64,000 bases of DNA from Paenibacillus ottowii (GTDB lineage Bacteria; Bacillota; Bacilli; Paenibacillales; Paenibacillaceae), in contig NZ_VIJZ01000005.1 in the NCBI RefSeq assembly GCF_006874425.1, positions 1 through 64,000 of the forward strand, read 5' to 3'. The translations under genes and the position numbers were made by a program. The notes beneath the pieces are model-generated. The model had not been told where the DNA came from and ran no database searches. It saw only the letters and a program-made list of their open reading frames with translations. Numbering within the stretch: the first letter of the stretch is position 1; each line of letters opens with the position of its first letter. Positions 4,136-16,506 of this stretch are shown in pieces.

Positions 4136-4864
4136 TCATTTGCATTTGTTCATGCCTGCAAGTGTTACTGCGGCAAGTCCAACGCAAAATAGTAAACTAA
4201 TGCAACTAAGCATGACCTGAGTTGTCGATGCTTCATAGTAGCCAGATATGGTAAATACAGCTGTAATAGGATATAAAGCTTTTAGGGTATTTGACGTACT
4301 TGCAAATAGTCCAATAAAAGAATAAAATTCAGTGATAACTAACGCAATCCAATATCCCTTTTTCATGTATGATACCAAAGCAATAATAGGTGAGATTGCA
4401 AGAAATATACATATACCATCTAAAAAATAAGCTTTCAAAAAATTCATGACCATCCCTATGGATAAATCAGAAAAATGTAAAGTTGCTTCAGCGAAAAATG
4501 TTATAGCAAAGAGTAACAAGTAAAAAAGAATACTATATACAAGGGTTATAATCATTTTTGCGATTGTCAACTTTGCTTCATTCACGGGGATAAGTCGAAG
4601 TGAATCGATTATATGCTCCTGTTCTTCACGACAAATCATGTAACTACCTAAGAGAGCAATTACCGCTGGAAGAACGAAAAATGTTGCCAGTGGTTGAGCC
4701 ACCGCCATATACCAACCTATAGTATCTATATCTCGAACACCGTCATTGTCTGTTAATCCGGATAAAAAAACAATAACTGCTACCATAACCGTCGCAAAAA
4801 TTGCAATCCAAACAAAACTTAACCGGCGAATCTTTTGATGTTCCGCCCAAAGTAATGTTCGCAT
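4136..4864 (-). CDS. lanG: Lantibiotic immunity ABC transporter permease LanG
   Basis: This is an integral membrane permease of about 242 residues with six hydrophobic segments. The N-terminus MRTLLWAEHQKIRR and the ABC-2/BcrB-like layout match LanG/LanE immunity permeases. The chosen ATG (4864) follows GAGGTGG. It lies right after lanE, whose stop overlaps its ribosome binding site. With LanE and LanF it should form the complex that expels mature lantibiotic from the membrane of the producer. LanE and LanG are told apart mainly by gene order. No second immunity gene (a LanI lipoprotein) is visible. Confidence 0.8.
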   Translation of the reverse strand: MRTLLWAEHQKIRRLSFVWIAIFATVMVAVIVFLSGLTDNDGVRDIDTIGWYMAVAQPLATFFVLPAVIALLGSYMICREEQEHIIDSLRLIPVNEAKLTIAKMIITLVYSILFYLLLFAITFFAEATLHFSDLSIGMVMNFLKAYFLDGICIFLAISPIIALVSYMKKGYWIALVITEFYSFIGLFASTSNTLKALYPITAVFTISGYYEASTTQVMLSCISLLFCVGLAAVTLAGMNKCK

Positions 4865-4874
4865 TATTACCACC

Positions 4875-5618
4875 TCACTTTCTTCTTGCTAATGCAACGT
4901 TTGCAAGGAGTACAGATACAATCCCCCAGACAAAAATGCTAAGGAACGCCAAGGGTATGCTAATTACCTGTGTATAGTTCAGTCCTGGAATATCTCCGTT
5001 TCGAGCAACGATTACTGCCATGCTGGATAACGGATGTATATACATATTTATCGACACTATAATAGAACCAAGAAAAGTATAAACTAGTGTTATAGCAACT
5101 GGAAGAATATATCCTTTTTGCGTTGTAGCAATTGCCAAAATCGGCAGCATTGCAAAAGCTGTAATAACACCAATCTCCAAACACTTTCTTATCAAAAACA
5201 AAACGTTTTGCCAATCAAATGCGATATCTCCGAGAAGTATACTAAATATAACGGAACCTACAGCTGTAACTAACATGAAGCAAACAGAATAAATCAAAAC
5301 TACAAAAAATTTACTAAAAAAATATCTCATTTTGCTGACAGGCACAATCCAAAGTTGTTTAAGCATATCGTATTGATTTTCATTGTACATTAGCATTGTG
5401 CTTAATATTCCTAAAACAACAGGTAAGACAATAAAAAGTGTAAGTCCGAACGCTGACCATTTATAAAACTGTACAGGGTCACCGCCTGTATCCCACGCAT
5501 ATTTAAATAATAAGTACGCTAGGAATGGCATGATGAGAGCTGAAAACATCATAATCCACACAAATGTTCTGCGTCGTAACTTAAGAAATTCTATTTGAAT
5601 AAGTTTAAGCAATGCCAT
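4875..5618 (-). CDS. lanE: Lantibiotic immunity ABC transporter permease LanE
   Basis: This 247-residue membrane protein has six predicted transmembrane segments and a charged N-terminus (IQIEFLKLRRRTFVW) typical of LanE/MutE-type ABC-2 permeases. Its ATG lies inside the 3' end of lanF (14-base overlap), so the two are translationally coupled. Together with LanG it forms the membrane channel of the self-protection transporter driven by LanF. Confidence 0.82.
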   Translation of the reverse strand: MALLKLIQIEFLKLRRRTFVWIMMFSALIMPFLAYLLFKYAWDTGGDPVQFYKWSAFGLTLFIVLPVVLGILSTMLMYNENQYDMLKQLWIVPVSKMRYFFSKFFVVLIYSVCFMLVTAVGSVIFSILLGDIAFDWQNVLFLIRKCLEIGVITAFAMLPILAIATTQKGYILPVAITLVYTFLGSIIVSINMYIHPLSSMAVIVARNGDIPGLNYTQVISIPLAFLSIFVWGIVSVLLANVALARRK

Positions 5619-6528
5619 CTCCTCCCGTAATTTTCCTGAAATAGTCCTCTAAAGTATCATTACAAAGCTGAGAACTAATAACCAACACATCTCCCAATAT
5701 TAGTGCCTTATTAACAGAAGCCATATCCAGAGAATTATTATAGATTTGCAACGTATGATCGTCTTTCACAGAATAACTTTTCAAACCGAATTGACGTTCC
5801 AAGATCAAGCTAGCTTTAGCAGCATCAGAAACTTGAAGTAGAATGTACTTACCATTTTTTCGTTTAAGTTCCTCCATACTATTTTCTTCTAACAGAATAC
5901 CCTTGTCGATAATTCCAATATCATCAGCAAGCAATGAAATTTCCGAAAGAATATGGCTGGAAATAAGAATTGTTTTCCCACGTTCAACACTCAAACTCTT
6001 AATAAAATCCCTGACTTCTGCTATACCTATAGGGTCCAGACCGTTTGTAGGTTCATCTAAAATCAATAGTTCAGGGTCATGCAAAATAGCATTAGCAATA
6101 CCCAGACGTTGTTTCATACCGAGAGAATACTCACCGAACAGCTTCTTATCCTTATACGGTAATCTTACAACTTCCAATGCATTCTTCACAGCGTTAGGAG
6201 CAGATGTACCACGCAGTTTTGCAAAAATGTTCAAATTTTCTGTTCCAGTTAAGTTTGGATAGAATCCGGGCGTTTCGATAATCGCTCCAATTCTGGGATA
6301 TAGCTGCTTTTCTCTACCTTTAATGTTCTTACCAAATACGTCTACCTCACCGGAAGAGGTAGACGTTAACCCTAAGATCATTTTCATAATTGTCGTTTTA
6401 CCGGCGCCATTACGACCGAGCAATCCGTAAATACGTCCTTTTTTTACATGGATATTTACATTATTTACAGCTTTCTGATCCTTATAGATTTTAGTAAGTT
6501 GTTTAGTTTCTATGGTATACTTTGTCAT
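5605..6528 (-). CDS. lanF: Lantibiotic immunity ABC transporter ATP-binding protein LanF
   Basis: The protein has 307 residues; its ATG follows AAAGGAGG. All ABC ATPase motifs are present: Walker A GRNGAGKT (about residues 38-45), signature YSLGMKQR (about 135), Walker B LLILDEPTNGLDP (about 155) and the SSH switch histidine. Where most ABC ATPases carry a Q-loop glutamine the sequence reads IIETPGFYP, the E-loop variant known from lantibiotic immunity ATPases such as NisF/SpaF. It is of the BcrA/LanF type. A triple direct repeat lies in its promoter region, consistent with control by the neighbouring response regulator. Confidence 0.88.
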   Translation of the reverse strand: MTKYTIETKQLTKIYKDQKAVNNVNIHVKKGRIYGLLGRNGAGKTTIMKMILGLTSTSSGEVDVFGKNIKGREKQLYPRIGAIIETPGFYPNLTGTENLNIFAKLRGTSAPNAVKNALEVVRLPYKDKKLFGEYSLGMKQRLGIANAILHDPELLILDEPTNGLDPIGIAEVRDFIKSLSVERGKTILISSHILSEISLLADDIGIIDKGILLEENSMEELKRKNGKYILLQVSDAAKASLILERQFGLKSYSVKDDHTLQIYNNSLDMASVNKALILGDVLVISSQLCNDTLEDYFRKITGGDGIA

Positions 6529-6626: not shown

Positions 6627-7550
6627 TTAAAGAGCTTTCGGAAGTTTTACTATAAACGTCGTACCACCAGATAATAAATTTTGAGCATTAATTGTTCCTT
6701 TATGTAGATGGACAAGTTCTCTAACAATAGCAAGCCCTAAACCATTTCCGTTAGTCGAACGTGATTCATCACTTTGATACAGTCTATCAAATATATGTGG
6801 CAGGTCATTAGGAGAAATCCCTTTTCCATTATCACTTATCTGAACCATAACGTTTTGTTCATTTCCGCTTATTTGTAGATCAATTCTAGTCCCGTCACTA
6901 TGTGCAATAGCATTTTGAATTAAATTATTAACAATTCTTATATAAGCATTTGGATCTAATCGGATAAAGCATTCTTTGTCAGAAATATCAATATTATATT
7001 CAAAATGCTTTTCCTCAAAGGTTGGTATCCAATTTACCAAGATATCACGAGTGAATTCGTTTATATCATGTTCTTCCAGTTTAAACACTTGCTCTTTAGC
7101 ATCAAGTTTGACCCAATCAAATAAAACTTCAACAAACCCCTTCAAATGATGTGCTTTATTTAAAGCGATTTCAAGATATTCTTCTTTTTCTTTGCCTGTA
7201 ACAAACTTCTCTTGAATTGCTTCTAAATAGCCAACTAAAGAAGTTAAAGGTGTTCTTACATCATGGGATAAACTCGTCATAAGTCGCTTATAAGCCTGTT
7301 CGGATTGCTTTAACTGTATGAGTTGAGTTTGACTATTCATTGCTATATCATTTATGGAATAACAAATTGTTTTAGTGATATCATTTTCATTTACCAAAAT
7401 ACGACGATTCCAATTTCCTTTTTTTATATCGGCTAAAGAATCTTCAATAATTGAAAGTTGTTCAGAAACCTTATACAGTTTTGTTACCAAATAAATGATA
7501 ACAATAAGACAAAAAACTAGAGCCATAAGTAGAATATAGATCCATTCCAT
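6627..7550 (-). CDS. lanK: Sensor histidine kinase LanK
   Basis: The protein has 307 residues. One N-terminal membrane segment (residues 3-23) is followed by a HAMP-like linker, an HisKA H-box SLSHDVRTPLTSL (phosphorylatable His near residue 97) and an HATPase domain with N (NLIQNAIAHS), G1 (DNGKGI), F (IFDRLYQ) and G2 (GNGLGLAI) boxes. It lacks a sizeable extracellular sensor loop, unlike NisK/SpaK. Its ribosome binding site, AAGGAGG, lies inside the end of the regulator gene 7 bases upstream, so both are co-translated. It probably senses the lantibiotic or membrane stress and controls lanFEG and perhaps lanA. Confidence 0.82.
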   Translation of the reverse strand: MEWIYILLMALVFCLIVIIYLVTKLYKVSEQLSIIEDSLADIKKGNWNRRILVNENDITKTICYSINDIAMNSQTQLIQLKQSEQAYKRLMTSLSHDVRTPLTSLVGYLEAIQEKFVTGKEKEEYLEIALNKAHHLKGFVEVLFDWVKLDAKEQVFKLEEHDINEFTRDILVNWIPTFEEKHFEYNIDISDKECFIRLDPNAYIRIVNNLIQNAIAHSDGTRIDLQISGNEQNVMVQISDNGKGISPNDLPHIFDRLYQSDESRSTNGNGLGLAIVRELVHLHKGTINAQNLLSGGTTFIVKLPKAL

Positions 7551-7556
7551 AATTAA

Positions 7557-8255
7557 TTAAGCCTCCTTATTAAAACGATAACCTACTCCATGTACCGTTA
7601 TAATATAAAATGGCTGTTCTGAATTGGGTTCTATTTTCTTTCTCAACTTACTTATAAAGGACATAATATTATTGTCATCAAAAGAATAATCATCTTTCCA
7701 AACTTGTGTATAGATTTGTTTCTTCGTAAACACACGACCCTTATTCGAAGCTAAAAATACTAATAAATCAAATTCCTTGCCTGTTAAATCAATTAGCTTG
7801 TCCTCAACATGAACAGTTCTTATTTCTTTATCAATAACAATTCCTTTAAAGGTAAGAATGCTTACAGAATCCCCAGAATTAAAAGTAGTATATCTTCTAA
7901 TCAAAGATTGCACTCTAGCAATGAGTTCCTTGATACTGAACGGTTTTGTTAAATAGTCATCTGCTCCAAGGCTAAGACCTGTTACCTTATCCGGCTCACT
8001 TCCTTTAGCTGTCAGCATAAGTACGGGTACATTACTATATTTTCTTATTTCAGATAATACTTGAAAACCGTCCATATTAGGTAACATTACATCCAAAATA
8101 ATTAGGGAATAAGAGTCGTTTTCATTCATGACTTGAAGTAATCCTGTTTGCCCGTTATACGCTATATCGGCTTCTAGGTTTACTTGTGATACGCATTTTT
8201 TTACTAATGAGCACAATTCCATATCATCATCTATTATGAGTATCCTATTTGTCAT
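7557..8255 (-). CDS. lanR: OmpR-family response regulator LanR
   Basis: The protein has 232 residues; its ATG follows AAAGGGGCG. The receiver domain (1-115) has the acidic pocket IDDD, the phospho-acceptor in LDVMLP (Asp near 55) and the conserved Lys in LTKPFS. A C-terminal winged helix (about 130-228) of the OmpR/PhoB type follows, ending in VHGVGYRF. Such regulators bind direct repeats, and a triple 11-base repeat lies before lanF. It forms a pair with the kinase immediately downstream. Confidence 0.85.
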   Translation of the reverse strand: MTNRILIIDDDMELCSLVKKCVSQVNLEADIAYNGQTGLLQVMNENDSYSLIILDVMLPNMDGFQVLSEIRKYSNVPVLMLTAKGSEPDKVTGLSLGADDYLTKPFSIKELIARVQSLIRRYTTFNSGDSVSILTFKGIVIDKEIRTVHVEDKLIDLTGKEFDLLVFLASNKGRVFTKKQIYTQVWKDDYSFDDNNIMSFISKLRKKIEPNSEQPFYIITVHGVGYRFNKEA

Positions 8256-8651: not shown

Positions 8652-9923
8652 TTATAGCAAGAATATAGAATCCCATTGTGTTTTAACAGGTCTATAACAA
8701 GACAGTAGTGTTAGAATCACTCCACTAGTTCCATTTAACAGCCCTATCTCGTCTTTATTGACCAATTTTCCTTTATCAAATTCTGTGTCTTTAAAACCCA
8801 GTGAATTTTGGTCATCGTATGAATTTAGTATATATTCAAATATTCCTGCATACATTTCTTTAAAATATATATCATCCGTATATTCATAAAATTTTCTAGC
8901 TAAACAACATATTCCTGAAAGACCGTGACAAAACGTAGGAGATACGACGTCACGTAATCTCTTTAGAGACAACTTCATACTTTGTATTGCCAAATTACGC
9001 ATTTCATTATCATTTAATATCCTTGAAGCTATCAATAGTGAATATGCAACTCCTGGTGTTCCATAACACCAGGCATCTCTTGACTGTACCGGTTTATCTC
9101 CATCAAATCCTATTATTTTTTGAGTTTCCCAAAAAAGTTCATCACCAATTTTCACACAGCCATCAGAGATATAATTTGATAAACACTTTATAGCCTCAAG
9201 CTGATCCTCAAAATATATTCCTGACTCATAGGACTTTGATAACACTAAAAGTATTCCAGGTATCCCATGAGATACTCCAAAATTTACATACCGAACCTTA
9301 GGATCATTTGCTAAATGGAACAGTTGACTATGATCTGACCTAATCGCAAATTTTGGAATTCCACTTTCATCTGTATTACAGATACTTGTTAAATACTGCA
9401 AAATAGACAGCAGTGTATTTTTAACTTTAGTTTCAGATTTAAAATTTATTAAATAATTAGCTGTACCAGCTAATCCATACATAATATCATATGAAAATTC
9501 GTTAAATGGTACACTTTTATACTCTGATATATTTTTGTCAGCTATACTCACAATATATTCGTTCAAATTCTCAATGAATTTTTGATAGTACTCACCATTA
9601 TTAGACATACAATTTGCTGCAAAACCTACGCCGCATAACCCATCAAATAGAGAAATATCCCCTGTACTGATCTTCCCAAGTTCATAATTTACTATCTCTA
9701 AATATTTATGGGCAGCTGTATCAAACCCACAGTTTGGAAAATTTAATTCAAGCTCAGAAAATAAAATACATAAAGCTGGATATGAAACTGCAACTGAGGT
9801 ACTTTTGTATTCTACGGCCTTAGAGCCTAAAATATGTTGAACAAACTCTACATCTGACAATTTTTTTGCTAAAGTTATGATTAAATTGTCTATTTCATGT
9901 TTTTTTTGCTCCAATTTATCCAT
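8652..9923 (-). CDS. lanC: Lanthionine cyclase LanC
   Basis: The protein has about 423 residues. The ATG at 9923 is chosen because GGAGGGG lies just before it and it overlaps the end of lanT (ATGGATAA). LanC enzymes are zinc proteins that add cysteine thiols to dehydrated Ser/Thr to make (methyl)lanthionine rings. The expected repeats and zinc ligands are visible: NFGVSHGIPG (His), DAWCYGTPGV (Cys) and FCHGLSGI (Cys-His), plus LNGTSGV near the C-terminus. It belongs to the lanBTC operon and works with LanB and LanT at the membrane. Confidence 0.92.
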   Translation of the reverse strand: MDKLEQKKHEIDNLIITLAKKLSDVEFVQHILGSKAVEYKSTSVAVSYPALCILFSELELNFPNCGFDTAAHKYLEIVNYELGKISTGDISLFDGLCGVGFAANCMSNNGEYYQKFIENLNEYIVSIADKNISEYKSVPFNEFSYDIMYGLAGTANYLINFKSETKVKNTLLSILQYLTSICNTDESGIPKFAIRSDHSQLFHLANDPKVRYVNFGVSHGIPGILLVLSKSYESGIYFEDQLEAIKCLSNYISDGCVKIGDELFWETQKIIGFDGDKPVQSRDAWCYGTPGVAYSLLIASRILNDNEMRNLAIQSMKLSLKRLRDVVSPTFCHGLSGICCLARKFYEYTDDIYFKEMYAGIFEYILNSYDDQNSLGFKDTEFDKGKLVNKDEIGLLNGTSGVILTLLSCYRPVKTQWDSIFLL

Positions 9924-11730
9924 ATTCCCCTCCATTTGACATGACATTAAATTCTAAATTATATATTTCCTCATAAGATGGGCAGACCCTCAATAATTCT
10001 TCATGTGTGCCTTCTGCCACTATTCTTCCTTCATCTAAATAAATTATTTTATCGGCTAACAGTACATGTGAAATTTTGTGAGAAATGAATATACCTATAT
10101 TATTTTCAGTTAATTCAAAAAATGTATTCATAATCTTTTTCTCACCTATTTTATCAAGTGCTGCATCAGGTTCATCCAAAATATACAATTGCGCATCTCT
10201 TAAAAAGCATCGTGCTAGTGCAACCCTCTGCCACTGTCCACCAGAAAGCTGAATTCCATCTGAAAACCATTTTCCTAATTGCTGATTTAAATCTGAGGAA
10301 AGGAAATCAACATCAGCCTTCTTTAGAGATTTTATTATTTGAGAATCATTTTCAATTTCATCAATATTCCCGAACCCAACATTATCTCTAACTGGGAGTT
10401 CAAACTTACAGTAATCCTGAAATAATATACCTGTTAGTTTGTGCAGACTTTCCATATCGATATTATTTAGTGAAACTCCATTGATCTTAATCATGTCATC
10501 ATCGACTAAATAATATCCCATTAATAATTTTACTAATGTACTTTTCCCTGAGCCGTTTCTTCCAAAAATAGCAACTCTTTCACCTTTCTTAATTTTCAAA
10601 TTTATATTTTTAAGAGCTTTTTTATTTGCATTAGGGTAACTGAAATTCAAATTATTTATTTGAATTTCAGTTATATGACTAAGTTTTTTCGTTTCTTCAC
10701 TTCTATTATTCGACTTTAATTTATTATCACTTAAAAAGCCTATCAATTTAGACATGTACAAACTATTTTGATTTATGCTGTAAATAATATTCATTATATT
10801 GTTAAAATTATCAAACACCATACCGATAACCCTGAGAAGCGCAACTGCACTACCTATTAAGATTTTCCCACTAACTACTGTTATGATTATTAATACCATA
10901 AGTGCTGCCATACACAATTGATTAACAAAATCAAATACAGTTGAAATAATCAAACGTATTTTGGAATTATACAAATTCTCATTAATTACACTTTTCTTTA
11001 ATTTATTATGCCGATCTATAATATGCTTGGCTAAGTTAAAAATCTTAACTTCTTTGAATGACTGATCCTTAGTAAGCAAAAATTCATAATACCAAATGCT
11101 TCTAGCTTTTTTGGAGTTCCTTTCTTCCGTTTGGAATTCTCTTTTGTTTATTGATAAATTGAATATTGAAAAAAGCAAAACAGGAGTAATAATAAGTAAT
11201 ACAGATAGAGGCTGCCATATTATTACCATAAAAATGGACGAAAGTATGGTCGTTATTGCAGTAATCATTGCCAATATTGAAGTGAAAATACTATATGGTC
11301 TAAAACCAATTTGTTGTTGAATATGCTGCAATTGATCCTGTACTTCAGAATTTTCAAATTCCTCTAAAGACATACTCGCACATTTGTTCATCAACCGATT
11401 AAACAATTCAAAATCTAACAGGTATTGATATTTTGCAAACAAAAAATCTTTTATGCTCGAAATGACATCTATTAAAAAACTAATTCCAATATAAACTGCT
11501 AATATTTTTAATGAATCATTAAAGTCCATACTTGAAACTGTATTTATCAAAATACCGAAAACGTTTACAGAAACTACAGGAACAATACCAGCAATAATAT
11601 TTATTATTATGCTAAAAACAAATATTGTCTTATTAGCTTGAAAGAAAATTTTAATAGCTTTTGGTATCACCTTCAGAGATGAAAACAATTCTTTCATCTC
11701 CGAAATAGTTAATAGTTTAAATTTTTGCAT
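9916..11730 (-). CDS. lanT: Lantibiotic ABC exporter LanT
   Basis: This 604-residue half-transporter has an N-terminal membrane domain (about residues 30-320, five to six segments) followed by an ATPase domain with Walker A FGRNGSGKST, signature LSGGQWQRVALAR and Walker B LYILDEPDAALD. It has no N-terminal C39 peptidase, as usual for class I (NisT/SpaT) exporters that release the modified peptide with leader still attached. Its ATG overlaps the lanB stop by 14 bases and its stop overlaps lanC, showing tight translational coupling. Confidence 0.92.
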   Translation of the reverse strand: MQKFKLLTISEMKELFSSLKVIPKAIKIFFQANKTIFVFSIIINIIAGIVPVVSVNVFGILINTVSSMDFNDSLKILAVYIGISFLIDVISSIKDFLFAKYQYLLDFELFNRLMNKCASMSLEEFENSEVQDQLQHIQQQIGFRPYSIFTSILAMITAITTILSSIFMVIIWQPLSVLLIITPVLLFSIFNLSINKREFQTEERNSKKARSIWYYEFLLTKDQSFKEVKIFNLAKHIIDRHNKLKKSVINENLYNSKIRLIISTVFDFVNQLCMAALMVLIIITVVSGKILIGSAVALLRVIGMVFDNFNNIMNIIYSINQNSLYMSKLIGFLSDNKLKSNNRSEETKKLSHITEIQINNLNFSYPNANKKALKNINLKIKKGERVAIFGRNGSGKSTLVKLLMGYYLVDDDMIKINGVSLNNIDMESLHKLTGILFQDYCKFELPVRDNVGFGNIDEIENDSQIIKSLKKADVDFLSSDLNQQLGKWFSDGIQLSGGQWQRVALARCFLRDAQLYILDEPDAALDKIGEKKIMNTFFELTENNIGIFISHKISHVLLADKIIYLDEGRIVAEGTHEELLRVCPSYEEIYNLEFNVMSNGGEYG

Positions 11731-14700
11731 TCACTTTACCTTCCAATATTCCTGTTTTTTTGTTTCTATGGTAGACACTATAAAATATATGCCTAGATAA
11801 TGTTCTCATTTTTCTTTCAAATTCGACATTTGGTCCAAACAATCTATTCATATGCATATGCAAAATACTATCAAGGATACTAAATTTAACATTTTTACTT
11901 TCCGGATAAAATTTTTCTATTCCTTCTAAATATGTTTCCATCGATGCACTTTTTATCAGCAGTATCCTAAAAATGAAATCAATTTCTGGAGTCAACTTCT
12001 CTCCAGATAAAAATTTTATTACAAAATCAAGATAAGAATTCTTATTTTTTTTAAATTCATCTTGTTCTTCTTGATCAAGCTTAATATGCTTTTGACAATT
12101 AAGAAAAATAAATATCTCATCTAAGCTCAATCCAAATCTTTTCACATGGAAAAATATGCTTATTACAGCTAAAAGTTCATCTGATATTTTTACATTATTA
12201 TTGTTTTTCTCGTAAATAATTGATTGAATTGCTATGCTATCTTTGTGAAATACCTCATGAGCATAATCCATCAAATCATATCCGCCATACCTTTCTAATT
12301 CTAGATCATAGCAGTCAATACTATATTTGGATATAATTGAATTTTTAATGAGTTGGCTAAAAATGTTTAAAAGCTTGGGCTGAACCATAAGCAGCCGATT
12401 ATAATCAGCTTTTATTCTCAATCGCAAATGCAAGTCTGGGTCTTTATATTGAATAAAAAAGTAGCTATCTATTTCTTTATTTTCAAGTAATTGCTGCAAA
12501 GGGGTGAATAAAGCATCACCTAATAAATAATCTATATTTTCTCCAACTCCATAAATTTTAAAATAAAGCCATTCATCCAGCGGAACTTTAATTCTACTAT
12601 TTCCAAAATTTTCAGATATCTCAAAGTCATCAATACTTGATTCAACTTCTGAAACTGAAATTAAAGGTATAACCAGTTCACAACAATAAGAATTATCATT
12701 ATGTTTAACTGGATGTTCTACTTCAACATTATATTTTTCTAATACAATTTCAGATTTAATAAGCATTTTTTGTAGTACTGACAAACATCTGTCCTCTTCA
12801 AGATTTAACAATAATTTTTGATCAGCTTCTACAACATTTATCCAACGAGAAATATTTCTACTTTCCAAGTGCTCTCTCAGTTTAATTTTAAATTCATCAA
12901 AACTGAAGTGGGCAGGTAAATCTAAATCATCTATCTTTAATATCCATTTTTCTTGCTCTAGTATAAAGTTCTTATATCGAATTGTTGGAAGATAAGCAAA
13001 TTTTTCAAGCAAGTACTGCCAAGGTTTATTATAAAATTTGATTCCATCAGAAGAAATATCATCAATAAATCTTAATATTTCAGGTTTTAATTGTGGATTA
13101 AACATATTCGTTGAGGTCGGAATTATAATTTTGTTATCAATTGCGGATTTTAAATAGAATTTATTGTTTTTAATACCGACTAAAATCTCATTTAATTTTA
13201 GCTTACGCGTATTATTTTTAGAATTCGTCGTTCCAAAACTTGTTTCATATGTGGAACCGTGCATATTTCTAATAACATTTGCAGTAACCAAACTATCTGG
13301 TAGAAAAGTGAATTCACAAGATTTATATTTATCATTGGAATCGTATACTGCATTGATTTTTTTATAGAAATCAATTGGGTCCTTCATTAGATGAGAGAAC
13401 CTACCAAAAGATTTCCCTGCAAAAGTTGAACCAAAGATATTGCTTAGATGAAATATATCGTTCCCATTTTCTTTGGTATAATTAAAGTAAATTTCCATAG
13501 ATTTTGGCAACAATTCTTCATCTAAATCTTCAGACATAAGTTTCTTGATATCTGCGTCTTTTATTTCAATTTCTTGGTTAAATCTTATAGATTCTATATA
13601 CTTTCTTTCAAAGAATCTAACCCATGGATTTATATATTCTCCTAAGCTATTAAAAGTTCTAGTGTTAGCAGAAGGAAAACCTAATCCCAAATCTGGATCA
13701 ACGAGTTCAGTTAAAGGGACGCACATAGATAGACCATATTTTTCTATAAATCTATTTTTATAATCATTTAATTTATCAAATGATTCATTAACATTAAATT
13801 GTAAAAATAGATTAATGAGCTCATTTATTTTCTTGATATCATTTTTATTTAAATTACATTCTTTATATTCAAAAGATGAATCAACAGTTAAATAATTTTT
13901 TGAAGGATGTACTTCCTTCATGCTGTGAAAAACATTAGTTAAGCAGCTTATCTTATCACTTTTATCTCCATTAGTATAATCTTCAATGTGCTTTTGTATA
14001 GAAATCAAAGTGTCAGCATTTATATCATATTGTTTAAGCTTATAAATAAAATACTCTAATTGGTTATTTACTGTTAACGGTGGGCGAAGATCAGAAATTA
14101 AGTATTCTTCTTTTATTAAAGATTGAACATATTCATGTAAAATAGATTGATCCATGCCAGGATATGCTTCTTCAAGTTTTTCTACAATTTCAACATAACT
14201 CAAATAGTCATTTGATATTTTAAAAATAATTTCAAGCGGTTTGGTATAATTTACAGTTTTTTTGTTGATTTTTTCCTTATCTTTGTTTTTTGTACATCCA
14301 AATAAAATTGCTTTGTTTCTGTGAATTGCAACACCTTCATTTGGCGTGTATTTAAGTTCTTTTAAATACTTAGCTTCATACATAAAAACCACTTCAAATA
14401 ACCAATTAGAATCTACCAAAGGTTTTCGTTGTATGTCTGTTCCACTTAATTCAAACGAAGTTTCTCCAGAATTAATATTCCCAAATGCAACAGCAGAAAA
14501 CAAACCAAACGGAGTACACCTGGAACAGTTTCTGCTGAAATATTTATATAGAGAATTTAATAAATAATTTGTATCTCTCACTTCACTTCCTTTTTCATAA
14601 TGCCTCATAAACTCATATAAATCATGACTTGCCACCAATATAGCTTCATCAAATTGTTTCTTGTAATAAGGAAAATCCAATAATGGTATAGTATTTTCTT

Positions 14701-14797
14701 GATTGTCTGCACTATTAATATTGTCTACTAACAAATTAATTGGTAGACTTGGAACCCTTATCATAAATGAACCTATATCTTTAAATAAATGTTTCAT
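11717..14797 (-). CDS. lanB: Lantibiotic dehydratase LanB
   Basis: The 1026 residues match the length of full class I LanB enzymes such as NisB and SpaB. Residues 1-700 form the glutamylation part, with FMIRVPSLPIN at the start and the SRNCSRCTPFGLFSAVAFG motif near 90-110. Residues about 720-1010 form the elimination (SpaB C-terminal) domain with WLYFKIYG and FFIQYKDPDLHLRLRIK. The enzyme uses glutamyl-tRNA to glutamylate Ser/Thr of the precursor and then eliminates glutamate to give Dha/Dhb. The ATG follows AGGAAGG. Unusually, lanA is about 1 kb upstream rather than adjacent, so lanB may need its own promoter. Confidence 0.93.
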   Translation of the reverse strand: MKHLFKDIGSFMIRVPSLPINLLVDNINSADNQENTIPLLDFPYYKKQFDEAILVASHDLYEFMRHYEKGSEVRDTNYLLNSLYKYFSRNCSRCTPFGLFSAVAFGNINSGETSFELSGTDIQRKPLVDSNWLFEVVFMYEAKYLKELKYTPNEGVAIHRNKAILFGCTKNKDKEKINKKTVNYTKPLEIIFKISNDYLSYVEIVEKLEEAYPGMDQSILHEYVQSLIKEEYLISDLRPPLTVNNQLEYFIYKLKQYDINADTLISIQKHIEDYTNGDKSDKISCLTNVFHSMKEVHPSKNYLTVDSSFEYKECNLNKNDIKKINELINLFLQFNVNESFDKLNDYKNRFIEKYGLSMCVPLTELVDPDLGLGFPSANTRTFNSLGEYINPWVRFFERKYIESIRFNQEIEIKDADIKKLMSEDLDEELLPKSMEIYFNYTKENGNDIFHLSNIFGSTFAGKSFGRFSHLMKDPIDFYKKINAVYDSNDKYKSCEFTFLPDSLVTANVIRNMHGSTYETSFGTTNSKNNTRKLKLNEILVGIKNNKFYLKSAIDNKIIIPTSTNMFNPQLKPEILRFIDDISSDGIKFYNKPWQYLLEKFAYLPTIRYKNFILEQEKWILKIDDLDLPAHFSFDEFKIKLREHLESRNISRWINVVEADQKLLLNLEEDRCLSVLQKMLIKSEIVLEKYNVEVEHPVKHNDNSYCCELVIPLISVSEVESSIDDFEISENFGNSRIKVPLDEWLYFKIYGVGENIDYLLGDALFTPLQQLLENKEIDSYFFIQYKDPDLHLRLRIKADYNRLLMVQPKLLNIFSQLIKNSIISKYSIDCYDLELERYGGYDLMDYAHEVFHKDSIAIQSIIYEKNNNNVKISDELLAVISIFFHVKRFGLSLDEIFIFLNCQKHIKLDQEEQDEFKKNKNSYLDFVIKFLSGEKLTPEIDFIFRILLIKSASMETYLEGIEKFYPESKNVKFSILDSILHMHMNRLFGPNVEFERKMRTLSRHIFYSVYHRNKKTGILEGKVNAKI

Positions 14798-14915: not shown

Positions 14916-15350
14916 TTGTTTATGAATCTCCTGAAAAGGTATCCAGATCATGTTAGTTTGGAAGAAGTTTTGTTAAGTGCAGCCGTCCTCCCATGTTGTA
15001 CAGATGATCAAACAAAGCTTCGAGACTGCGAAAGGTTGCGACAAATATATACTGCTATAGATCGATATCGATGCTTCTTATCCGTTCCATCCTTGGAGTG
15101 GCTGAATGCATGCTTCCGTTGTTTGCCAAGCTCACATGCATATGGTGACAAAAACCAAATCGAACGTAACATTCTCCTGCAAAAAAAGCCGGGACGTGCC
15201 CGACCACCGAAAAATGCTAAATGTTCCTACCACAAAATTTTAATCAGAATTCCGTTTCATGCTGGTGATGAATTAGAATCACAATTTGGCCAGCACGTAT
15301 GTAAGCTCGGCAGCTGCTTAAATCGTCCGCTTTTTACAGCCATCGTTTGA
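14916..15350 (+). CDS. Unrecognised plus-strand ORF inserted between lanA and lanB
   Basis: A 144-residue frame from a TTG, basic in its second half (KKPGRARPPKNAK), on the opposite strand to the lan genes. No family is recognised and there is no clear ribosome binding site. Its TGA overlaps the TTG start of the next frame (TTGA), which looks like translational coupling or one gene broken by a frameshift. Less AT-rich than lanB. It is probably the remains of an inserted gene, possibly from a mobile element. Confidence 0.35.
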   Translation: MFMNLLKRYPDHVSLEEVLLSAAVLPCCTDDQTKLRDCERLRQIYTAIDRYRCFLSVPSLEWLNACFRCLPSSHAYGDKNQIERNILLQKKPGRARPPKNAKCSYHKILIRIPFHAGDELESQFGQHVCKLGSCLNRPLFTAIV

Positions 15351-15775: not shown

Positions 15776-15828
15776 CTAAAAACATAAACGCCATGCATTC
15801 AAGCGTTTGCTTAAATGCATGGACGTTT
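15776..15828 (-). terminator. Hairpin terminator or attenuator after lanA
   Basis: AAACGCCATGCATT (15786-15799) pairs with AATGCATGGACGTTT (15814-15828), a nearly perfect 13-14 bp stem. On the minus strand it lies 8 bases after the lanA stop and is followed by GTTTTTAG. Such partial terminators after lanA usually let the precursor be made in excess over LanB. Confidence 0.75.
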
Positions 15829-15835
15829 ACATTAT

Positions 15836-16009
15836 TTAACCGCACAACCATGTATTTGTGCAATTTCTTGTCAAACCGCACTCACTTGTTCCACATGTGC
15901 TGCCTGTGTTACATCCTGGCGTGCAATATGCAACACTTGTAACTTGTGGTTTAACATCCTTATCAGTACTCTTTGCAATCTTAAGATTCAAATCAAAATC
16001 TTTATTCAT
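15836..16009 (-). CDS. lanA: Class I lanthipeptide precursor LanA with five TxxC units
   Basis: The protein has 57 residues; its ATG at 16009 is preceded by GAAGGGAGGG. The leader (1-22) carries the class I FNLD-type box as FDLNL at residues 5-9 and ends in KPQ, like subtilin's TPQ, so cleavage is expected after Gln22. The core of 35 residues opens VTSVAYCTPGC, matching the ring A/B segment of nisin and subtilin that grips lipid II pyrophosphate. After that come TGSC, TSEC, TRNC and TWLC, so Thr-x-x-Cys recurs at core positions 8-11, 13-16, 19-22, 25-28 and 31-34, the last four at exactly six-residue steps. Six cysteines and eleven Ser/Thr are present. Ring A would be Ser3-Cys7. The nearby lanBTC genes support a modified lantibiotic. 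I know no described peptide with this pattern. Confidence 0.93.
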   Translation of the reverse strand: MNKDFDLNLKIAKSTDKDVKPQVTSVAYCTPGCNTGSTCGTSECGLTRNCTNTWLCG

Positions 16010-16506
16010 AGATTTACCCTCCCTTCGATTTTTAGATTTTTTAACTTAAGTAAAATAACTTCTTGCTGCCATATATGGTAATGGTGAAATTAATCACTCT
16101 ATCACCCAAAACAAAAGAGCGCATAAAAAGGAATAAATAAGAAAATATCACTTTTCTATACCAAATTTACTGTAAATGTTGATATCCCTTTATTTTGAAT
16201 GAAATATATTAAAAATGTTTATTTTGTTTTTCTAAAGCAATAATATACCAATCATATAGTTTGTGCAACATTTTTTAACACAAAAAACCAAGATTTGTAA
16301 TAAAATGTGACAATTTTGCAACAACTGTGAGTGAACGCCTGTTTATTATGTAAGTATCTCAACTTTCTCACCTGGAAAATGAACTTAAACCCTTGAGCTC
16401 GTAAGAAGAATTCAATAGATTTACTTGTATTGACAAAAAACACCTCGCTTGTTTGGTATCATGGAAGTACGACTAACCATGCCAACAAGAAAGGTGTGTA
16501 ACTCTA
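16010..16506. other. lanA upstream region and probable IS left end
   Basis: AT-rich sequence carries the lanA promoter region on the minus strand (TTGGGTG near 16104-16110 and TATAT near 16074-16078 are only weak matches). The CAAGATTT repeats found before lanF are absent. From about 16260 the sequence probably belongs to the left end of the transposase remnant that follows. No other gene seen. Confidence 0.4.

Follow-up and report, generated by a model that had tools for sequence, protein, structure and literature searches.

A gene on the minus strand of a Paenibacillus ottowii contig encodes the precursor of a class I lanthipeptide of the gallidermin/nisin family. The peptide is of a well-known lantibiotic kind, in an uncharacterised variant. 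Its gene cluster is intact and ordinary for class I, and the predicted topology of its core is unusual and common to a small group of precursors. We consider it probable that the product is a gallidermin/nisin-family class I lantibiotic with six uncrossed rings that binds lipid II. In the following, the window refers to the whole stretch of 64,000 nucleotides that was analysed, and the ladder subtype is defined by six Cys residues, each with a Ser or Thr at position -3 or -4, without overlap.

Precursor gene and biosynthetic cluster

The cluster comprises nine genes in the order lanA-B-T-C-R-K-F-E-G on one strand, and each of them is open:

15836-16009, minus strand: lanA, class I lantibiotic precursor of 57 residues (reading of the open frame and family models)
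about 16009-15944, minus strand: leader of lanA; about 15943-15839: core, if cut after Gln22
11717-14797, minus strand: lanB, Ser/Thr dehydratase (PF04738, 375.8 bits; PF14028, 150.5 bits)
9916-11730, minus strand: lanT, ABC exporter without an N-terminal peptidase domain
8652-9947, minus strand: lanC, thioether cyclase (PF05147, 196.1 bits)
7557-8255, minus strand: lanR, OmpR-type response regulator
6627-7550, minus strand: lanK, short histidine kinase whose single hydrophobic segment lies at the N-terminus
5605-6528, minus strand: lanF, immunity-type ABC ATPase (putative role)
4875-5618, minus strand: lanE, ABC-2 membrane subunit (PF12730, 216 bits; putative immunity role, E/G naming tentative)
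4136-4873, minus strand: lanG, ABC-2 membrane subunit (PF12730, 147.8 bits; putative immunity role, E/G naming tentative)

The assignment of lanA as a 57-residue lantibiotic precursor, already made in the sequence-only reading, was confirmed by the open reading frame at 16009-15836 and by three family models, all above their cut-offs, i.e. TIGR03731 (gallidermin/nisin; 52.4 bits, cut-off 29.3), NF038155 (25.6 bits, cut-off 20) and PF02052 (22.3 bits, cut-off 21). The encoded precursor consists of the leader MNKDFDLNLKIAKSTDKDVKPQ and the core VTSVAYCTPGCNTGSTCGTSECGLTRNCTNTWLCG; cleavage probably occurs after Gln22, which would release a core of 35 residues. Numbered from Val1, the core has Cys at positions 7, 11, 17, 22, 28 and 34, and its charged side chains are limited to Glu21 and Arg26, with no Lys. 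The calculated monoisotopic mass of the unmodified core is 3559.460 Da, and 6 to 11 dehydrations would reduce it to 3451.397-3361.344 Da. The start SVAYCTPGC fits SxxxCTP(G/S)C, given as the lipid II-binding start motif in the available part of PMC7268733. Ser3...Cys7 for ring A and Thr8-x-x-Cys11 are both present as originally read, and the original view of a nisin/gallidermin-family precursor with a putative lipid II-binding start (SxxxCTPGC) is supported.

Separate lanB and lanC genes beside lanA place the cluster in class I. LanB matches the solved structures of NisB (4wd9, E=1.8e-84, covering residues 45 to 1008 of 1026) and 9g04 (E=1.3e-161), and LanC those of 8byk (E=7.6e-71) and NisC (2g02, E=3.8e-21). 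The HG, CYG and CHG motifs, which have a catalytic role in LanC enzymes, align with 8byk. In LanT, the peptidase-ABC model TIGR01193 matches only from model position 148 and a Pfam peptidase family is absent. No maturation protease was identified in the cluster, and seven S8 peptidase matches were found elsewhere in the genome; for paenilan of P. polymyxa, the accessible text of PMC8960859 shows maturation by an S8 peptidase encoded outside the cluster.

The dedicated LanRK pair adjoining the biosynthetic genes could be taken as a hint that the peptide serves mainly as a signalling or autoinducing lanthipeptide and not as an antibiotic. We regard this as very improbable, because the cluster contains LanFEG-type immunity genes and the SxxxCTPGC start is kept in the window, in the genome G115 and in the Lacrimispora forms described below (the L002 form has CTGGC). 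Moreover, an extracellular sensor segment is absent from LanK by hydropathy, whereas NisK-type kinases have an extracellular sensor loop.

Relatives and non-coding elements

Within the genus, matches were found in three of 75 genomes, namely the own genome, G115 and one with a weak paenicidin-like match. The G115 core is identical to the window core at 31/35 residues, and all nine genes are kept at 83-96% identity (for lanG over the 51 residues inside the stretch that was read), with 86, 90 and 83% for LanB, LanT and LanC. A scan of contigs added six loci, titled Lacrimispora (three), Hungatella (one) and Paenibacillaceae bin (two), which have cores 29-31/35 identical to that of the window and carry lanA, B, T and C together in every case (6/6). 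In five of the six, LanB, LanT and LanC are 65-66, 73-74 and 67-68% identical to the window proteins. However, the DNA of the six loci is 91-98% identical among the pieces listed, except for one of 87.6% over 340 bases; thus, they represent one lineage, some titles look wrong, and the independent evidence is thin. The precursors of L009 and L010 are identical. Both loci are titled Paenibacillaceae bacterium and have 91-97% DNA identity to the Lacrimispora loci, so that their labels look wrong. In L011, a Lacrimispora chromosome, lanB (10331-13500) lies in three pieces with two frame changes, whereas its neighbours keep lanB whole, and the gene is therefore either broken or misassembled there.

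A second ladder-type precursor, VTSWFACTGGCLTGSNCGSSECGTVPCGKTTSKYC, is encoded in a separate cluster of the same genome (L002/L034/L051, G000:C38:116201-116368). Its LanB, LanT and LanC are 25, 33 and 24% identical to those of the window (the LanC sequence is truncated where the stretch that was read ends), which means that a second related precursor sits with quite different enzymes. The same genome also encodes a paenicidin-like precursor (L003/L047, G000:C32:367346-367483) without the final Cys of its relative L068 (SNIEAL versus SNIGALC).

In broader searches, TIGR03731 matched in 22 of 394 family genomes and the A1 profile, with an E-value limit of 0.01, in 33 of 388; among all these matches the ladder core occurs only in the own genome and in G115. 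The draws from the class (7/398 genomes matched, own included) and from the phylum (2/398, own included) gave no new ladder core, and the phylum match L053 is subtilin-like. Over all loci examined, the pattern scan found the ladder only in the window, G115, the Lacrimispora lineage and the L002-type sequences. On viral contigs, 60 stretches fit a pattern and none was confirmed as a relative. Weak matches came from 31 plasmid records, in each of which less than 80% of the query was covered. As a separate observation, the locus L052, with L038, L045, L046 and L048 (G545:C21:45196-45854), contains four near-identical tandem precursors of the gallidermin/mutacin type, ITSVSLCTPGCGDTGSFNSYCC, in one cluster.

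Four non-coding elements were recognised around lanA:

16017-16026, minus strand: ribosome-binding site GAAGGGAGGG upstream of lanA, read directly and conserved with G115
16084-16097, minus strand: 14-bp inverted repeat GTGATTAATTTCAC upstream of lanA
15776-15839, minus strand: strong hairpin directly 3' of lanA, with the stem core at 15822-15791
15187-15205, minus strand: terminator-like stem-loop with a T-run between lanA and lanB, sequence conserved in G115

The inverted repeat is a possible regulator site, since GTGATT[AC]ATTTCAC occurs in all four loci of the alignment (window, G115, L007 and L011; L006 and L008-L010 lay outside it). It is kept in L007 and L011, although the LanR-like protein of L007-L010 is only about 34-36% identical. 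The window, G115 and the six loci of the Lacrimispora lineage retain the hairpin sequence behind lanA apart from its loops, which have diverged, and in these eight loci (five distinct rows) all 78 of 78 stem cells are paired and 14 of 16 pairs never vary. No pair changed on both sides in this set, so that covariation does not prove the structure and the conservation could be one of sequence. The hairpin is likely a partial terminator or 3' stabiliser, which would set LanA above the level of the enzymes. Terminator-like sites number three in the region, compared with a mean of 1.4 in shuffles. Before lanB, the search for a T-box or another known RNA element returned two Rfam matches, both under their gathering scores. 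An open frame on the opposite strand (14916-15350) was also seen in the lanA-lanB spacer; it lacks a Pfam match, and part of the spacer is missing from G115.

This spacer measures 1,038 bases, i.e. 363 more than in G115, and holds a terminator-like site, which together with the split lanB of L011 could point to a silent or decayed cluster that makes no product. All nine genes of the window cluster are open, however, and their retention in G115 has already been mentioned. The codon differences between the two lanA genes (five synonymous and four non-synonymous in the core, four and five in the leader) also argue against decay, and we consider a silent or decayed cluster improbable.

Predicted ring topology

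The sequence-only reading had counted five Thr-x-x-Cys units in the core, the last four on a strict six-residue period. The recount gave four units, at 8-11, 19-22, 25-28 and 31-34. Residue 16 is Thr and the Cys follows at 17, so the unit placed at 13-16 is in fact Thr13-x-x-x-Cys17, and the distance of five residues between Cys17 and Cys22 breaks the period. Six-residue steps are found for Thr13/19/25/31 and for Cys22/28/34. Chance was estimated from 200,000 shuffles, either of core residues 12-35 or of the whole core. Shuffling residues 12-35 gave p=0.027 for at least three Thr-x-x-Cys units, p=0.009 for four Thr in a run with period 6 and p=0.0003 for both; with the whole core, at least four units had p=0.013 and the Thr run p=0.020. 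These results for the repeat are modest and were obtained post hoc. Ser/Thr at -3 or -4 of every Cys, in a chain free of overlaps, arose in 0.3% of the tail shuffles and in 0.009% of the whole-core shuffles. Among the seven ladder-type precursors extracted from loci, five have the four-Thr run, i.e. the window and four Lacrimispora sequences from one lineage. The run is missing in the other two, since G115 has Ser at 19 and the second precursor of the same genome loses the register. Hence, the conserved feature is the Ser/Thr-to-Cys spacing and not the period. The ladder idea is plausible at the sequence level, and it is supported better by the comparison than by the repeat.

To predict bridges, a rule was used that starts from the C-terminus and pairs each Cys with the closest unused Ser/Thr located three or more residues N-terminal to it; in the available part of PMC11251773 it is right for 92 and wrong for 8 of 100 known lanthipeptides. 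We ran the rule on 40 precursors, comprising 39 distinct sequences obtained with a leader-motif filter (40-80 residues, at least four Cys) and the peptide of Paenibacillus sp. APC 4171. The filter dropped L004, L005, L042, L043, L053, L075, L080 and four further stretches, which were read separately and include no ladder. For the window core, the rule predicts six uncrossed rings with spacings 4-3-4-3-3-3 and the code SCSCSCSCSCSC. Eight of the 40 precursors received this code, all of the window or the L002/APC 4171 type. It was absent from the remaining 32, of which 26 are predicted to have crossed rings and six to have four or five uncrossed rings with mixed spacings. The stricter test, demanding Ser/Thr at -3 or -4 without overlap, selected the same eight, including the window. 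The controls L012, L015 and L039, which we take to be subtilin-like and nisin-like precursors, received a crossed end. In a further control, the script applied to the geobacillin-like L040 reproduced the geobacillin I code printed in the accessible text of PMC11251773. The nisin/subtilin topology, with rings A, B and C followed by crossed D and E, is not what the rule predicts for the window core.

The rings would be Ser3-Cys7, Thr8-Cys11, Thr13-Cys17, Thr19-Cys22, Thr25-Cys28 and Thr31-Cys34. The linkers between them comprise 0, 1, 1, 2 and 2 residues; thus, 26 of the 35 core residues fall within the proposed rings. The original proposal of ring A followed by five Thr-x-x-Cys rings therefore stands insofar as all six Cys can be paired sequentially and without crossing, and fails for ring three, which is Thr13-x-x-x-Cys17. 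This ring starts with Thr13-Gly14, which is common to the precursors that we assume to be nisin-, subtilin- and geobacillin-like, and its spacing to the Cys is six in the nisin-like, five in the geobacillin-like and four in the window peptide. Accordingly, ring three is most readily understood as ring C in a shortened form, contrary to the earlier statement that only rings A and B were kept as in nisin and subtilin.

Judged from two sequence subtypes, ring five has the best-supported pairing and ring six the least certain one. Ring five shifts as a unit between them, from Thr25/Cys28 to Thr24/Cys27, with the spacing unchanged. Ring six can likewise be read as a shift from Thr31/Cys34 to Ser32/Cys35, but in the L002 subtype Thr residues at -5 and -4 of the last Cys accompany the Ser at -3, which makes this pairing the least certain. 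Alternative donors in the window core are Ser20 for Cys22 (a three-residue ring), Ser15 for Cys17 and Thr29 for Cys34. Consequently, a product of the same family could have at least one larger or crossed ring in its C-terminal half, for example Thr29-Cys34 or Ser20-Cys22, and come nearer to the nisin/paenicidin topology. Crossed rings are common in the family (26 of the 40 precursors by the rule), spare Ser/Thr donors exist at core residues 15, 16, 20 and 29, and the Thr at -5 in the L002 subtype makes a ring of the Thr29-Cys34 type compatible with the comparison. However, in 8/8 ladder-type precursors a Ser/Thr stands exactly three or four residues before every Cys, in an order free of overlaps, which is true for 0/32 of the others, and the Thr and Cys of ring five shift together. 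We therefore judge larger or crossed rings to be rather unlikely and retain six uncrossed rings as the preferred topology.

Proposed mode of action and known systems

According to the six-ring model, LanB would dehydrate Ser and Thr, LanC would then close the rings and LanT would export the peptide, whose leader would be removed, probably after Gln22, by a protease encoded elsewhere. LanFEG would provide self-protection and LanRK regulation. In the nisin family, lipid II is bound at its pyrophosphate by rings A and B. The corresponding SxxxCTPGC part of the window peptide would cage this pyrophosphate as in nisin and thereby block cell-wall synthesis, while the tail would form a row of small rings with linkers of 0-2 residues. 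It would lack a hinge of the nisin type, and its single Glu would be balanced by a single Arg. That the tail may be rod-like or very resistant to proteases, as suggested in the sequence-only reading, is speculative. Pore formation by nisin needs a cationic tail. It also needs a flexible hinge, as stated in the available part of PMC7721686. With neither of them, weaker pores are to be expected, and lipid II sequestration should outweigh pore formation. Most likely, the peptide is an antibacterial that binds lipid II and lacks three features of nisin, namely the hinge, the crossed D/E rings and a net charge of the side chains.

A more far-reaching scenario, for which we see a nearly even chance, is a lantibiotic lineage that binds lipid II and in which the part following rings A and B has been remodelled into a chain without a hinge, made of uncrossed rings of 4 and 5 residues (SC x 6) and with side chains of zero net charge. 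This lineage would be common to Paenibacillus-type bacteria and Lacrimispora via a transferred lanABTC unit and would kill without nisin-type pores. If the ladder is true, it offers a compact natural test of which nisin-type parts are needed, combining lipid II-caging rings with the loss of hinge, crossed rings and cationic tail, and the LanB/LanC pair could serve as a useful tool to introduce methyllanthionine rings of four residues in rows. In addition, the lineage is an example of one lantibiotic unit that occurs in two Gram-positive groups distant from each other.

The initial impression that no described peptide has this pattern holds for characterised peptides with this core in the open-access literature searched. 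It does not hold for the topology, which is not unique, because the predicted APC 4171 peptide and the second precursor of the same genome share it. Searches with the core strings and close variants led, among the matches listed, only to PMC11381294 with this APC 4171 peptide. The accessible parts of the reports on nisin-like peptides of gut and rumen (PMC10877564, PMC12506125, PMC13289728) gave no matching core, nor did those of PMC3091789, PMC6165006, PMC9118873, PMC7343975, PMC5100339 and PMC7268733. The string SCSCSCSC is absent from the text of PMC11251773, whose predicted topologies stand in a figure. CMB001 was rejected as a match, being subtilin-like in the available text of PMC7721686.

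In PMC11381294, as far as accessible, the APC 4171 lanthipeptide is a prediction of 57 residues with a table mass of 3317.95, and thus known by sequence and mass. It shares with the window peptide the leader type, SxxxCTPGC, the TG-x-x-C third ring, the CGSSECG middle and six Cys with predicted uncrossed 4-3-4-3-3-3 rings, and differs in the C-terminal third (TVPCGKTTSRLC versus LTRNCTNTWLCG); it resembles the second precursor of the same genome (L002). Its identification with paenilan was rejected, since the 24 + 26 residues of paenilan fit the 50-residue type (accessible text of PMC6429003). Like the window peptide, paenilan is a class I lantibiotic from Paenibacillus with no protease gene in its cluster (available part of PMC8960859), but its 24-residue leader and 26-residue core contrast with 57 residues and a 35-residue core here. 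The 50-residue precursors L029-L032, L061 and L064, which contain five Cys and for which a crossed end is predicted, would fit paenilan. The nearest solved precursor is 9g05_C of the gallidermin/nisin family (E=2.2e-05); the nearest solved LanB is found in 9g04/9g05 and the nearest solved LanC is 8byk. The geobacillin I / 9g05 precursor shares the CTPGCxTG start, whereas geobacillin I has seven rings with crossings, SCSCSCSSCSCSCC in the accessible text of PMC11251773, compared with six predicted uncrossed rings in the window core.

Paenicidin A is another Paenibacillus class I lantibiotic with six Cys, but it differs in its core start VLSIVACSSGC and its predicted crossed rings. For this comparison L023 was assumed to be the paenicidin A precursor. 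Nisin itself has five rings, with ring C at 13-19, a hinge and crossed D/E rings. The window peptide has in common with nisin and subtilin the FDLx-type leader box, rings A and B, the Thr13-Gly14 start of ring C and the LanB/LanC pathway. In contrast to both, its ring C is predicted at 13-17 instead of 13-19, it has no hinge and no crossed D/E rings, six predicted rings replace five, and its core contains no Lys and a single Arg.
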